From the NCBI GenBank assembly GCA_902796965.1, contig CADBRA010000026.1, positions 1-52,015 of the forward strand: DNA of 52,015 nt, given 5' to 3'. Positions 27,468-35,763 of this stretch are shown piece by piece. A program made the translations under genes and the position numbers. The notes below the pieces were generated by a model. That model saw only the letters and a list, made by a program, of their open reading frames with translations, was not told where the DNA came from and did no database searches. Positions within the stretch are counted from its first letter, which is position 1; each line of letters starts with the position of its first letter. Source of the DNA: an uncultured Eubacteriales bacterium (GTDB lineage: Bacteria > Bacillota > Clostridia > Peptostreptococcales > Anaerovoracaceae).

Positions 27468-28394
27468 TCACTCTTGTATCGCCATGGCAATATCGGCAAG
27501 TATATCGACAAAATGGAAGCATCCGCGCGGACCGCCAAGCACATTTCCTATATCGCGCTTCTTTATGTCATAAAGGTTCATGCCGATGATCTCCTGAGGA
27601 TCGATATGGTCGAGCTCGCGGCATCTGTCGAAAGGAACCCTCACTGCTGTCATATCGTAATCTATTATCATGCCGTCACTGTCGTACTCAAGTTCTATGT
27701 TCATCTCGTGCGCTGAATCGTTATATGAACCCGCAGCATAATTCAATCCGCCGCCATTGTCAATGACCATGTAATTTATGTACTTGTTGTACAGGTCATA
27801 TTTCCTGTAATGCTGAATGTTTCCCGTGTAAACAGGCCATTCCTCCAGTGCAGGCATATTTCCTTTTATATATGGCCTGCAATATCCCGGCTTGAGCTTT
27901 TCCCAGTACGCCTCATACTCTCTGAGTGTTCCCATGCCTCTTTCTTCTATGAGATATGCTTCGGCCTGATAGGCTCCGCGCAGACATTCGTTGAAGAGCT
28001 CTCTGATATGACGCCACGCCGGCGAAACTATATCTGCCGGAGCTGTGTCGAGGATTTTTTCTTTGTGCGGGTTTATATTTTCCCAGCCGCCGGGCGGTTC
28101 GCAGTAATCAGTCACATACGTGTAATCAGGCAGGACTCTGACGGAATTTTTTTTGTCATCGATATATGCCGATTCTCCTATCAGCATCGGAGCCTTTCCC
28201 TCGCCTCGGCGCTCAGGATCCTGATCTCTGTGAACAGCCCACCTCGCATCCGTTATCTCAAACGTATCGACTCGAAACTGCAGACTCGCACTTCCCTCGA
28301 AATCTGTCGATTCAAGATATGCGTCCGAAACGCATTCGCTTTCGTTTATGCGCCTTACGGTATTTGAATATACGCCCTGTTTTATGATATCCAT
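27468..28394 (-). CDS. DUF2889-like protein of unknown function
   Basis: The 308-residue soluble protein ends in CRELDHIDPQEIIGMNLYD then GPRGCFHFVDILADIAMAI. This matches the general layout of DUF2889 domains, in which a conserved Gly-Cys-x-His motif closes the domain. The first 90 residues are beta-rich (EGSASLQFRVDTFEITDARW). No signal peptide or membrane segment is visible. The biochemical role is not known. It is isolated between a promoter near 28448 (TATAAT) and a terminator, so it is probably monocistronic. AGGAG lies six bases before the ATG. Confidence 0.65.
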   Translation of the reverse strand: MDIIKQGVYSNTVRRINESECVSDAYLESTDFEGSASLQFRVDTFEITDARWAVHRDQDPERRGEGKAPMLIGESAYIDDKKNSVRVLPDYTYVTDYCEPPGGWENINPHKEKILDTAPADIVSPAWRHIRELFNECLRGAYQAEAYLIEERGMGTLREYEAYWEKLKPGYCRPYIKGNMPALEEWPVYTGNIQHYRKYDLYNKYINYMVIDNGGGLNYAAGSYNDSAHEMNIELEYDSDGMIIDYDMTAVRVPFDRCRELDHIDPQEIIGMNLYDIKKRDIGNVLGGPRGCFHFVDILADIAMAIQE

Positions 28395-31103: not shown

Positions 31104-31574
31104 TTATTTCCTCCTGAGTTCTCTGAAAAAATCACGCAGGATCTGTGCGCATCTTTCCTGCAATATTCCTATGTGGACTGCAGGGTGGTGATTCAGCATT
31201 TTCTCTCCCGTAACGTCGAGAACAGATCCGCATGCTCCGGATTTCGGATCCGGCGTACCGATATAAATATTTTTAATTCTGGCGTTCACGAGCGCTCCCG
31301 CGCACATCGCACACGGCTCGAGCGTCACGTAAATATCGCACCCCGTCAGCCTCCATCCGCCGACCGCCTTAAGAGCTTCATGAACAGCCTCCATCTCAGC
31401 GTGGGCTGTAGGATCTTTTTCTGACACGGTATGGTTGCTGCCGCATCCGATTATCTCTCCCTCTCTAACAACAACAGCTCCTACAGGAACCTCTCCGGAC
31501 TTCGCAGCACTTTCTGCGAGCGCCAGCGCCTTTTCCATATATTTTTCGGCTGCTGTTCTTTCCGCTTCTGTCAT
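31104..31574 (-). CDS. tadA: tRNA-specific adenosine deaminase
   Basis: Converts A34 to inosine in tRNA-Arg(ACG) so that it can read three arginine codons. The 156-residue zinc enzyme has the catalytic motifs TAHAEMEAVHEA and TLEPCAMCAGALVNARI. Its start shares one base with the stop of the Lrp-type regulator (TGATG) and its stop abuts the Ig-like protein gene, so the three genes are one transcript. Confidence 0.95.
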   Translation of the reverse strand: MTEAERTAAEKYMEKALALAESAAKSGEVPVGAVVVREGEIIGCGSNHTVSEKDPTAHAEMEAVHEALKAVGGWRLTGCDIYVTLEPCAMCAGALVNARIKNIYIGTPDPKSGACGSVLDVTGEKMLNHHPAVHIGILQERCAQILRDFFRELRRK

Positions 31575-32035
31575 CAGCGTCTGACGTTCAGCGTAGGAGA
31601 CACACTGTTCTTTATCTTTGTGGTATTGAGGATCACATTCGTCTGTGTCCGCTTTATCCCGCTGAAGCTCCTGATCCTGTTCATTATATGCTCGAGCGAT
31701 GTCGTATCTGTCGTAACGACTTTCAGCATATAGTCGTATTCACCTGTTATATAATGGCATTCAAGGATCTCCGGCTCACTCTGCACATATTCCAGAAACG
31801 CTTCTGTATCTGTCGTCGATTCGAGTCCGATGCTGATTACTACAGAAAGATCCTTTCCCATGAGCTTAGGATCGAGAATAACTGTGTATTTATTAATCAC
31901 ATTCGAATTTTCCAGTTTCTTCAGTCTTTCGCTCACAGCGGAAAGCGAAAGATTAACCCTCTTGCTCAGCTCTGAAATTGAGACGCGCGAATTATCCTGA
32001 AGGACTTCAAGAATTTTTACGTCTATCGTGTCCAT
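31574..32035 (-). CDS. Lrp/AsnC-family transcriptional regulator
   Basis: The 153-residue protein has an N-terminal winged helix (about 4-60; VSISELSKRVNLSLSAVSERLKKLE, written in part) and a C-terminal RAM domain (about 70-140) that usually binds an amino acid. The target amino acid cannot be assigned from sequence. It is the first gene of the Lrp-tadA-Ig-like transcript, with a promoter just upstream. Confidence 0.9.
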   Translation of the reverse strand: MDTIDVKILEVLQDNSRVSISELSKRVNLSLSAVSERLKKLENSNVINKYTVILDPKLMGKDLSVVISIGLESTTDTEAFLEYVQSEPEILECHYITGEYDYMLKVVTTDTTSLEHIMNRIRSFSGIKRTQTNVILNTTKIKNSVSPTLNVRR

Positions 32036-32247: not shown

Positions 32248-33438
32248 TCAGTATTCCTCAAGCTTTATTTTTCGGCCGAGCTTCTCAAGTTTTTCAGCTA
32301 TAGAAGTGACGATTCTCATCTTGACATCGAGACCGAGGCGCGGATCACTCTTGTTATATGCGGGGTTGTTAGCCTGACCCAGCATGAATGTTATGTCAGT
32401 CGTACTGTCCGCCAGCAGCTTCACCAGCTTGGTCGCGCCGTCTTCCTTCTCTAAATCGACGTATTTTCCCGGCTTCTGACCAGTCTCAACTTCGTGAAGG
32501 TATTTTTCCATGAGCGTCTCTGCTGCCGTCAGCGTGAGCACACCCTCTGTTACTAGATCAACGCCGTCAATGTACGCTATCGGAGGCACATCCTCGCTGT
32601 AATACTTAGTGTCTCCACGAAGCGGACGTCCGAGCTCGCGTGCCACAAGCTGCGATGTTGAGCCTCCGCATACAATCTTTTTACCGCTCGCCGACATGAG
32701 TATATCGACAACTCTCCTGTCATCATCTCTGGATGCCGGCGGCCCGACGAGCACACGCGTTTCCGTTTGCGGCACTATCCTGACCGTGGTGACAGTAGTA
32801 TCATCACCAGGTTCTCCCTCGTAAAGATCATCGCATATGCCCATGAGTGTGCGTGTCATATCTCTGGCCGGCATCTTCTTTCTGTAATTCCGCTGTACAA
32901 ATTCGACGACGTTCTCGCGGCGCCATCCGAGATTGAGAAGCTGCCCGATTCCCGCGTGTATCACGCCGTCTGAAAACGTCACAATCATATCGTCAGGCTG
33001 CGCGCGGAAATAGCATTCCCATATGTTTTTGCCGTTTATCACGCGCATATGCTTATCCATATTCTCATCTATAACGCCGTCTCTGATTATTATCAGCTCA
33101 GGTCCGTCAAATTCAGCTGTATATACGCCTCCCTCGCTGCCGACCTCTATTATCGTAAATGTAGAGTAGGCTATGCCGCGTTCGCTGCATACCGGCAGAG
33201 TGTCAGTTATCGTATCTACGCAGTCTATAATAGACGCGCCTCCGGCCAGCATTGTCGCTATGATCTTGCTTGTGAGTGTCGCAAGTATATTTGCCTTTAC
33301 GCCGCTGCCCATACCATCTGCGAGCACGACGACAGACTTTGACGGAGTATATATTACGTTAACCATATCTCCGCAGAGCTCTTCGCCCTTTTTATTCATG
33401 CTCATGCTGTAGGTGTCGATGCTAAACTTCCGTCCCAT
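32248..33438 (-). CDS. SpoIIE-type PP2C serine/threonine phosphatase
   Basis: Predicted protein phosphatase, likely the output of the adjacent sensor. Metal-binding motifs are visible: GDMVNV near residue 23, LADGMGSGVKAN near 39-50, SDGVIHAG in the middle of the domain and GDDTTVTTVRI near 210. After about residue 225 there is an extra 170-residue region (KKIVCGGSTSQLVAREL, written in part) of unknown fold. There is no membrane region like that of sporulation SpoIIE. The gene follows the H-cluster/PAS gene by 18 bases, with GGAGG before the ATG. Confidence 0.9.
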   Translation of the reverse strand: MGRKFSIDTYSMSMNKKGEELCGDMVNVIYTPSKSVVVLADGMGSGVKANILATLTSKIIATMLAGGASIIDCVDTITDTLPVCSERGIAYSTFTIIEVGSEGGVYTAEFDGPELIIIRDGVIDENMDKHMRVINGKNIWECYFRAQPDDMIVTFSDGVIHAGIGQLLNLGWRRENVVEFVQRNYRKKMPARDMTRTLMGICDDLYEGEPGDDTTVTTVRIVPQTETRVLVGPPASRDDDRRVVDILMSASGKKIVCGGSTSQLVARELGRPLRGDTKYYSEDVPPIAYIDGVDLVTEGVLTLTAAETLMEKYLHEVETGQKPGKYVDLEKEDGATKLVKLLADSTTDITFMLGQANNPAYNKSDPRLGLDVKMRIVTSIAEKLEKLGRKIKLEEY

Positions 33439-33456
33439 CAGTTTTCACCTCCGCCT

Positions 33457-35223
33457 TCACAGATCTGATTCGCTTGATATCATGAGTATATTTCTGAGCC
33501 TGTTGAATGCAAGCTTTGATTCCGCCGTAGTTTCTCCGAGCAGACTCGCTATCTCCTGTGCTATTCTCATCTGTTTTTCAACGACTTCCTGTGTGACTTC
33601 AAGTGTCTCATCTCTCAATTCCGACGCTTTCTTTATTTGTTCGGCATGAGCCGTCCTGTCATCTATGATAGCCATCTCTATATTATGGCGCGCAACTTTA
33701 AAGAACGTTATGTCAACTATCTTCTCTATTGCATGGCATTCTACAGTTTCACGCACGAATTTCGTCTCCTTGTACATCGAATGCTCAAAAAACTCGCCGT
33801 CGAGATAATCGCTTACCGGCCGGCCTATGAGTTCGCCGCGCGGCTGCCCGATAATCTCTTCAGCCACCTGATTTGCATCTATTATATTAAGCTTATCATC
33901 CATGATGAGCACGCCGTTAGGAGAATTATCAAACAGCAGGTTCGACTGTGCTTCAGCTTTGTCACGAGCATTTGGAATGCACATGAACGGATCCGCCATC
34001 CCCTGATAAACAGCCTTTGCCTTTTCCACGCACGAGCTGTACCCGCAGCCGCCGCAGTCAAGCATATCTTTCTTTGTCCTGCGGCCCACGAGCGCCAGCA
34101 ATTCCCTGAGTTCCTCCGCACTCGGCTCTTTTTCCTCTATCGGCTGCGGTTTGAACTTCTTTCTGATATCCACATCTGCCGTTTCAGAAGGACTGTTGTG
34201 AGTAAGACTGACATCAACCCTTACACTCTCCAGCCACCTGACCATGCTGCCAAATGTATTTTTGTTATTCAGTCGAAATATCGGTCCTCCAAGACACGCG
34301 GAACTGCACGACATGACAGTTATGAAAAAGCCGTGCATATCTTTGCCCATCTGACCGAGCATGCTGTACGCGCGCGATTCGCCGTTTATATCCCACATTT
34401 TATAATTATATTTGAGCTCACCGGGCAGAGCTTTAACCAGTCCTCCCGGTTCATCCGGATACTTCCATCTGTAACTGTGACAAAATGTCGTTTCCTGATC
34501 CTCTTCGGCCGTGATGTTGAGCGATTCCTCTTCCATCCACTGCTCGAGTTCCTCGAATGTGAGATATGCATCAATGAGTTTTCCATCGTCTGCGATATTG
34601 GCGAGCTTGTGATACGCTATGCACTGACCGATCCCAACAACCCTGATATCATTCCCATAAGTTGCTCTCAGCATCCTGGCATGGGCTTCGAGCGGAGTCT
34701 CGACCGGAATCATCCACTTGACGAGATCGGGATAGTACTTCTGTATCATAAAATTCACCGCCGGACATATCGAGCTTATCGCATTGTCCATGTTATGCTC
34801 ATACAGCAGTTCGGAATATTCCTGGATTACACGACCCACGCCCTCTGAAATTTCTTCGACGCCGGCAAATCCGAGTTTCTTCAAGACGACAGCTATTTTC
34901 TTGAGATTGCTCTCAGGAAAATAGACCGACATAGCTGAAGAAACAGACGCATAGACCTTTTCTCCTGAAGCGGTCATTTTTCTGACTCTGTCGAGATCCC
35001 CCGCGAGATCCCTCGCGTCCTGTGGGCAGACGATATAGCATCTGCCGCAGTAAATGCACCTGTCCTCGTTTATTTCGGCACGCTCGCTGATGATGGCAAT
35101 GGCCTTTACCGGACAGGCTCTCACACATTTGTAGCAATTTTTACAGTTAGCCTTTTTCAGCCTCATGATCGGCTCTGTTGATCTGTTTGAAGTTCTTTCA
35201 TTCATACTGAGAATCACCCTCAC
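33457..35223 (-). CDS. Ferredoxin-H-cluster-PAS protein (putative HydS-type sensory [FeFe] hydrogenase)
   Basis: 588 residues. N-terminal ferredoxin domain: C27, C30, C33, C37 and C56, C59, C62, C66. Then a hydrogenase-like core with cysteines placed as H-cluster ligands: C153 (SSICPA), C201 (GQCIAYH), C306 and C310 (SCSSACLGG). Next a CGGCGYSSC cluster motif (C390, C393, C398, with C415) and a PAS domain at about 425-525. The usual TSCCP proton-transfer cysteine is replaced by isoleucine, as expected for sensory (group C-like) rather than turnover enzymes. With the neighbouring phosphatase and [2Fe-2S] protein it may sense hydrogen or redox state. A second ATG at 35205, behind GAGGGTG, is a possible start. 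Confidence 0.88.
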   Translation of the reverse strand: MRVILSMNERTSNRSTEPIMRLKKANCKNCYKCVRACPVKAIAIISERAEINEDRCIYCGRCYIVCPQDARDLAGDLDRVRKMTASGEKVYASVSSAMSVYFPESNLKKIAVVLKKLGFAGVEEISEGVGRVIQEYSELLYEHNMDNAISSICPAVNFMIQKYYPDLVKWMIPVETPLEAHARMLRATYGNDIRVVGIGQCIAYHKLANIADDGKLIDAYLTFEELEQWMEEESLNITAEEDQETTFCHSYRWKYPDEPGGLVKALPGELKYNYKMWDINGESRAYSMLGQMGKDMHGFFITVMSCSSACLGGPIFRLNNKNTFGSMVRWLESVRVDVSLTHNSPSETADVDIRKKFKPQPIEEKEPSAEELRELLALVGRRTKKDMLDCGGCGYSSCVEKAKAVYQGMADPFMCIPNARDKAEAQSNLLFDNSPNGVLIMDDKLNIIDANQVAEEIIGQPRGELIGRPVSDYLDGEFFEHSMYKETKFVRETVECHAIEKIVDITFFKVARHNIEMAIIDDRTAHAEQIKKASELRDETLEVTQEVVEKQMRIAQEIASLLGETTAESKLAFNRLRNILMISSESDL

Positions 35224-35229
35224 ACTTCT

Positions 35230-35484
35230 CTAAATTTCTCCGCTGCCGAGAATCTCTCTTCTGAAAACTTCATCCACATTCTGTTCAGTCATGTCGTAAA
35301 CCGGGCGGCCGTCAACCTCAGCTGCTATAGCGTCCCCTTCGCATCTGTCCATGCAGAATGACGCTTTGAGCTCTACTTCGTTCTCGAGCCCGTATTCTTT
35401 TATCAGCTCGGCAAGCTTATTGATCGCGTGATGCGAGCCCTTAAGATGGCATGACGTTCCTACACACACAGTAATAGTTTTAAT
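35230..35484 (-). CDS. Small thioredoxin-fold [2Fe-2S] protein
   Basis: Predicted electron-transfer subunit related to the 24-kDa (NuoE/HymA-like) family. Four cysteines are spaced as cluster ligands: the pair in CVGTSCHLKGS and the pair in SFCMDRCEGD. The first standard start in frame is GTG at 35469, 24 bases after GGAGG, which is too far. Family members usually begin about five residues earlier (MKxxTVCVGxSC). Here that position is AUU at 35484, nine bases after GGAGG, giving 84 residues. An AUC at 35487 is the alternative. It is the first gene of the putative sensor operon. Confidence 0.85.
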   Translation of the reverse strand: MKTITVCVGTSCHLKGSHHAINKLAELIKEYGLENEVELKASFCMDRCEGDAIAAEVDGRPVYDMTEQNVDEVFRREILGSGEI

Positions 35485-35691: not shown

Positions 35692-35743
35692 CAAAAAAAG
35701 AAAAAGCCCGTGCCGAAATACGACGGCGTATTTCGGCACGGGC
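35692..35743 (-). terminator. Very strong intrinsic terminator after the lytic transglycosylase gene
   Basis: A perfect 17-bp stem (35706-35722 with 35727-35743) around a four-base loop, followed on the minus strand by TTTTTCTTTTTTT. It is the longest perfect terminator stem in the window. Confidence 0.95.
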
Positions 35744-35763
35744 CGCCGGCACAAATACGGCGG

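Follow-up and report, generated by a model that had tools for sequence, protein, structure and literature searches.

A clade of phosphatase-linked, HydS-like sensor proteins without two residues of the diiron pocket

Our analysis of a stretch of 52,015 nucleotides (the window) revealed a HydS-like sensor protein from a clade that lacks both of two conserved diiron-pocket residues. This clade is new here, within a three-gene arrangement that is already known. By descent and architecture, as judged from sequence comparison, the module is a member of the group C3 "phosphatase-linked" lineage. We rate the chances as about even that it works as a redox-controlled phosphatase switch of this lineage, with a ferredoxin or redox signal likelier than H2 in the window clade. 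An earlier sequence-only reading had described a hydrogen or redox sensing module and had overlooked the loss of the two residues. Its signalling part stands, since a role in signalling is very likely for a unit of three genes that is so conserved, whereas the sensing of H2 has become doubtful in the window clade with the loss of pocket residues. The module consists of three open reading frames on the minus strand, which are listed here with their surroundings in window coordinates.

35230..35484, minus strand: thioredoxin-like [2Fe-2S] protein, 84 aa, with an ATT start at 35484 (Pfam 2Fe-2S_thioredx; ATT aligned with the ATG of relatives; a homologue precedes HydS at 72 of 80 named genome loci)
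33457..35223, minus strand: HydS-like sensor, with 588 aa if started at GTG 35223 but more probably with 582 aa, started at ATG 35205 (open reading frame, Pfam, alignment)
32248..33438, minus strand: SpoIIE/RsbU-type PP2C phosphatase, 396 aa (Pfam, structure model, fold search)
35705..35744, minus strand: strong terminator of the preceding gene, which forms the upstream boundary of the module (18-pair stem and T tract)
31574..32035, minus strand: Lrp/AsnC-type regulator, a neighbour that adjoins the module in several window-clade genomes (neighbour-gene comparison)

All three reading frames, reported before as a SpoIIE-type phosphatase and a small [2Fe-2S] protein encoded with a 588-residue protein, were recovered together with their Pfam families. 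The reading frame of 588 residues is present, but the start of the closest relative matches ATG 35205 and a protein of 582 aa is therefore more likely. The small protein, when read from 35484, matches Pfam 2Fe-2S_thioredx (E=6.8e-6) and shows the cysteine pattern C-x4-C...C-x3-C. Its ATT at 35482-35484 is preceded by GGAGG and lines up with the ATG of three relatives; it is either an unusual start codon or a mistake in the assembly. Neighbours of the module in the window are the Lrp/AsnC regulator, a TadA-like deaminase and GlnRS, in an order that is common to the window and the congener G002. The same congener has the sole relative, among the neighbour genes compared, of a 308-aa protein encoded at 27468-28394. 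The whole 52-kb window contains a single Fe_hyd_lg_C protein and no second hydrogenase gene, and neither a catalytic hydrogenase nor ethanol genes, as in the hfs and R. albus operons, were found beside the module in the window.

The sensor combines the following domains and residues, numbered from GTG 35223.

35011..35166, minus strand: 2x[4Fe-4S] ferredoxin domain, residues 20-71, with Cys 27, 30, 33, 37, 56, 59, 62 and 66 (Fer4_7, invariant Cys)
34282..34959, minus strand: H-cluster domain Fe_hyd_lg_C, residues 89-314, with the [4Fe-4S]H ligands C153, C201, C306 and C310 (Pfam, alignment)
34936..34938, minus strand: Ser96, at the position of P231 in CpI (100 of the 107 aligned HydS have Pro; alignment)
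34768..34770, minus strand: Ile152, equivalent of the proton-transfer cysteine C299 of CpI (alignment)
34612..34614, minus strand: Tyr204, at the position of K358 in CpI (of the 107 HydS, 98 have K and two R; Tyr or Cys is confined to the window clade; alignment)
33973..34062, minus strand: C-terminal FeS cluster domain PF04060, residues 388-417 (Pfam)
33727..33936, minus strand: PAS domain, residues about 430-499 (Pfam)

The match to Fe_hyd_lg_C (residues 89-314) has an E-value of 4e-32. The reported four H-cluster and eight ferredoxin cysteines are present, and together with four in the FeS domain (390, 393, 398 and 415) they make up 16 cluster cysteines that are invariant in an alignment of 26 sequences. 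All four H-cluster cysteines (153, 201, 306 and 310) are moreover invariant across 107 HydS sequences. The second cluster motif and the PAS domain noticed from the sequence correspond to the Pfam domains at residues 388-417 and about 430-499. The PAS domain is followed by a conserved tail (residues 524-587), which is helical in a low-confidence model of the sensor; this model, built from seven sequences, was poor (pLDDT 54) and was set aside as unusable for pocket geometry.

In CpI, K358 forms a hydrogen bond to one of the cyanides at the diiron site, while the other cyanide lies at P231/S232. We checked the CpI numbering on an alignment of a HydA protein from the genome of the window to CpI. 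At the K358 position, 98 of the 107 HydS have K, two have R and the remaining seven have Tyr or Cys, and the P231-equivalent proline is kept in 100 and missing in seven. Both losses hit exactly the same seven proteins, namely the window protein and six relatives, which carry Tyr (5/7) or Cys (2/7) at position 204 and mostly Ser at the 230-231 equivalents. The earlier statement that the proton-transfer cysteine was lost is correct, with Ile152 at the C299 position; loss or replacement of this cysteine alone is common in sensory enzymes (PMC10055695, PMC10407848). The hydrogen-bonding residues that hold the [2Fe] cofactor, in contrast, are reportedly kept in sensory hydrogenases (PMC10055695), and the loss of the K358 and P231 equivalents makes hydrogen binding by the window clade doubtful. 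A second, milder pocket change was seen in two HydS of the genus g60 (L074 and L077), with Asp at the A230 equivalent and Arg at the K358 equivalent.

The seven proteins without K358 and P231 equivalents form one clade (support 100/100) nested inside the HydS family. Its stem branch is long, with 1.34 changes per column versus a median of 0.3 for end branches. The sensor and phosphatase genes are both under purifying selection in this clade, with pN 0.14 versus saturated pS for HydS between window and G002, and dN 0.04 and dS 1.0 for L060-L062. Together with the loss of three pocket residues, the long stem branch might be taken for decay, with a sensor half that senses nothing and a constitutive phosphatase. 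The invariance of 16/16 cluster cysteines, the strong purifying selection in both genes and a gene order kept across several genera speak against such a remnant, which we consider improbable. Still less probable, in our view, is that the cysteines of the H-cluster domain bind another, non-hydrogenase cofactor, for example a [4Fe-4S] cluster with Tyr or Cys at 204 as an extra ligand. The restriction of position 204 to these two residues is non-random and would fit such a ligand, but the occurrence of two alternative residues speaks against a specific one, and we saw no positive evidence for this reading.

The favoured reading, a redox switch, is supported by the domains and cluster ligands, the conserved gene order, the phosphatase fold with its metal-site Asp, and the loss of pocket residues in a single clade under purifying selection while the four H-cluster cysteines stay. 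The window, with no hydrogenase in its 52 kb, also supports it, unlike other HydS loci of the family, which are often found with HydABC, Rex, AdhE or NuoE. In the window clade, known from seven sequences, the H-cluster probably lacks its diiron part or has it in a much changed form, and the signal is therefore likelier to be the state of ferredoxin or redox than H2. Its most specific version, in which a hydrogenase-derived protein has given up the diiron site, kept all Fe-S ligands and its phosphatase, and become a pure [4Fe-4S] ferredoxin or redox sensor, appears to us to have somewhat less than an even chance. What counts against the redox switch is that none of the four H-cluster cysteines is lost, not even the bridging ligand of the diiron site, and that Tyr could take over from Lys in donating a hydrogen bond to the cyanide.

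The strongest alternative is a functional H2 sensor like other members of group C3, in which a complete H-cluster tolerates Tyr204 and Ser96, affinity or redox potential is retuned, and the phosphatase is under the control of H2, as has been proposed for HydS of R. albus. We regard this as a serious possibility that falls clearly short of an even chance. The same gene unit and all cluster cysteines are present, C299 is commonly replaced in sensory enzymes (PMC10055695), and the R. albus operon was 111-fold down in co-culture with an H2 consumer (PMC6776011). On the other hand, the equivalents of K358 (as K or R) and P231 are kept in 100 of 100 HydS outside the clade and lost together inside, and no hydrogenase gene lies in cis within the window.

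Absence of H-cluster maturases had been proposed as a refutation of hydrogen sensing, and the outcome is mixed. In the genome of the window, a draft that is 92% complete, HydE (570 bits) and HydF (569 bits) are present and an H-cluster could therefore be delivered. HydG was found neither in this draft nor in three congeners, which speaks against the H2 sensor, and the best HydG-like match in the draft is a ThiH beside ThiG. We dropped the missing HydG as strong evidence against an H-cluster, since at least 11 of 30 family genomes share the HydE+/HydF+/HydG- pattern, some of them 97-99% complete (e.g. G062, in 3 contigs). The HydA proteins checked in HydG-less family genomes keep their motifs, and a missing hydG has already been reported for [FeFe]-bearing Clostridium genomes (PMC9431212). 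The genome of the window encodes five Fe_hyd_lg_C proteins, among them HydA proteins with intact motifs. HydA with intact motifs in a genome lacking a detectable HydG means that the maturase test leaves the H-cluster question undecided. The motif TSCSPGW of its own HydA was considered as a lost ligand and rejected, as HydA1 of A. woodii (7q4v, 782 bits) has the same motif. The same genome also carries a bifurcating HydA operon (L086:6070-14400, contig C62) with a group D-like H-cluster protein, an HATPase_c_2 protein and DRTGG-like genes, and this group D-like protein is a putative second sensor.

The phosphatase is divided into two domains.

32776..33429, minus strand: PP2C catalytic domain with metal-site Asp D24, D41, D157 and D212/D213 (Asp invariant in 96 sequences)
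32251..32763, minus strand: family-wide C-terminal alpha/beta domain, residues 226-396, without a named family (alignment, structure model, family searches)

SpoIIE of Pfam matches residues 34-221 (E=1.6e-14), which leaves about 170 aa without a family. The fold matches structures of SpoIIE, RsbU-type proteins and RsbX (VIA-align Z about 19-23), and PP2C domains were among the matches listed for the full-length model. The extra domain of 170 residues noticed earlier is no peculiarity of this locus, as it is present in 96/96 aligned phosphatases and is therefore a standard, unnamed part of this phosphatase family. Structure prediction, suggested earlier for this region, gave an alpha/beta domain that is modelled with confidence (the protein as a whole has a mean pLDDT of 88), and G232, G258, P285, G292, E298, G299, G354 and N358 are near-invariant. 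Searches of Pfam and NCBIfam returned no family for it, and a sequence search of the PDB gave no convincing match; a weak PDB profile match was to phosphoheptose isomerase (E=0.011). A match over 275 residues to Rv1364c (3ke6), an RsbU-RsbW tandem, hinted at a GHKL domain. We discounted this hint as weak, since in our reading neither the sequence nor the predicted order of strands and helices resembles a GHKL ATPase. As a widely conserved and unnamed domain it presents a clear target for structure work.

In the favoured redox reading, electrons would reach the sensor via the small [2Fe-2S] protein, the ferredoxin clusters or both. The redox state of the relay, from a [4Fe-4S] cluster at the H-cluster site to the C-terminal FeS cluster, would alter the PAS domain and the helical tail, and these would contact the adjacent SpoIIE-type phosphatase and switch it on or off. 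The phosphatase would then dephosphorylate a Ser/Thr-phosphorylated regulator. Concerning this target, the search for anti-sigma and anti-anti-sigma partners proposed earlier was successful in part. The genome of the window contains an RsbW-like anti-sigma gene paired with a SigB/F/G-type sigma gene directly after gyrA (L133:7240-8493, contig C15), but no STAS (anti-anti-sigma) domain was found in this genome and no STAS gene lies beside the pair, whereas STAS proteins occur in 22 of 28 relatives. The phosphatase of the module is the only SpoIIE-type one in this genome (the other match being Stp1/IreP), and this, along with the RsbW-like/sigma pair, makes an RsbW-SigB output possible. SpoIIAA-SpoIIAB-SigF-like operons were seen in relatives, but we found no link between them and the phosphatase of the module.

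If the version with a pure redox sensor is true, it illustrates how losing the residues that anchor the [2Fe] subcluster can convert an H2 sensor to redox sensing. Surveys class such proteins as H2 sensors (group C3), and counts of these would include non-hydrogenases if the window clade no longer binds the diiron site; the equivalents of K358 and P231 would then provide a simple filter for non-hydrogenases. Proteins with and without diiron anchors, but with the same partners, offer a natural comparison for the route of the signal from a sensory hydrogenase to PAS domain and phosphatase.

The catalytic fold and metal-binding Asp of the phosphatase resemble other SpoIIE/RsbU-type PP2C proteins, from which it differs by its extra C-terminal domain and by the lack of a STAS substrate found in the assembly. 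With group D [FeFe] proteins (TamHydS), of which a relative occurs in the bifurcating-hydrogenase operon (L086), the sensor shares an accessory C-terminal FeS cluster; these proteins, however, are without PAS, keep the K358 equivalent, and have HATPase and DRTGG-like genes as partners where the sensor has a phosphatase. The arrangement with a phosphatase is already known from HydDB group C3 (PMC5037454), the R. albus operon (PMC6776011) and hfsABC (PMC5707799, PMC11837493). In Thermoanaerobacterium hfsB encodes a PAS-[FeFe] protein and hfsC a serine phosphatase, and deletion of hfsA or hfsB leads to more adhE transcript and ethanol (PMC5707799, PMC11837493). HfsB and HfsC are thus similar to sensor and phosphatase of the module, but hfsABCD has the hydrogenase hfsD in the operon, and genetics are available for hfs only, the window clade being known from sequence. 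The R. albus operon, described with an H-cluster/PAS protein, a Ser/Thr phosphatase, a ferredoxin-only hydrogenase and an alcohol/aldehyde dehydrogenase (PMC6776011), shares with the module the small [2Fe-2S] protein, HydS and a phosphatase in which this C-terminal domain recurs. Further genes at the locus of R. albus 8 (L203) are rex, adhE, those of an APH/RIO-type kinase and another small [2Fe-2S] protein, and an [FeFe] hydrogenase gene in the HydA2 position, none of which is found beside the module of the window. The kinase gene (L203:3743-4492, and at 11 other loci) is located directly upstream of [2Fe-2S]/HydS in operons of the R. albus type and might encode an opponent of the phosphatase; it was not found in the genome of the window. 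Finally, HydDB lists [FeFe] group C3 as "phosphatase-linked (putative)", with possible H2 sensing via Ser/Thr phosphatases (PMC5037454), and a phosphatase lies downstream of HydS in 78 of the 80 named genome loci. The earlier assignment to sensory, group C-type proteins agrees with domains and tree: in a HydS tree built without HydDB's own sequences, the window protein is nested in the phosphatase-linked radiation, at a node (100/99) with HydS of Christensenella, Petroclostridium and Caloramator. The module resembles group C3 in its H-cluster domain, ferredoxin clusters, C-terminal FeS cluster, PAS domain and adjacent Ser/Thr phosphatase and belongs to the same lineage by tree, while the window clade differs from it in being without the K358 and P231 equivalents.
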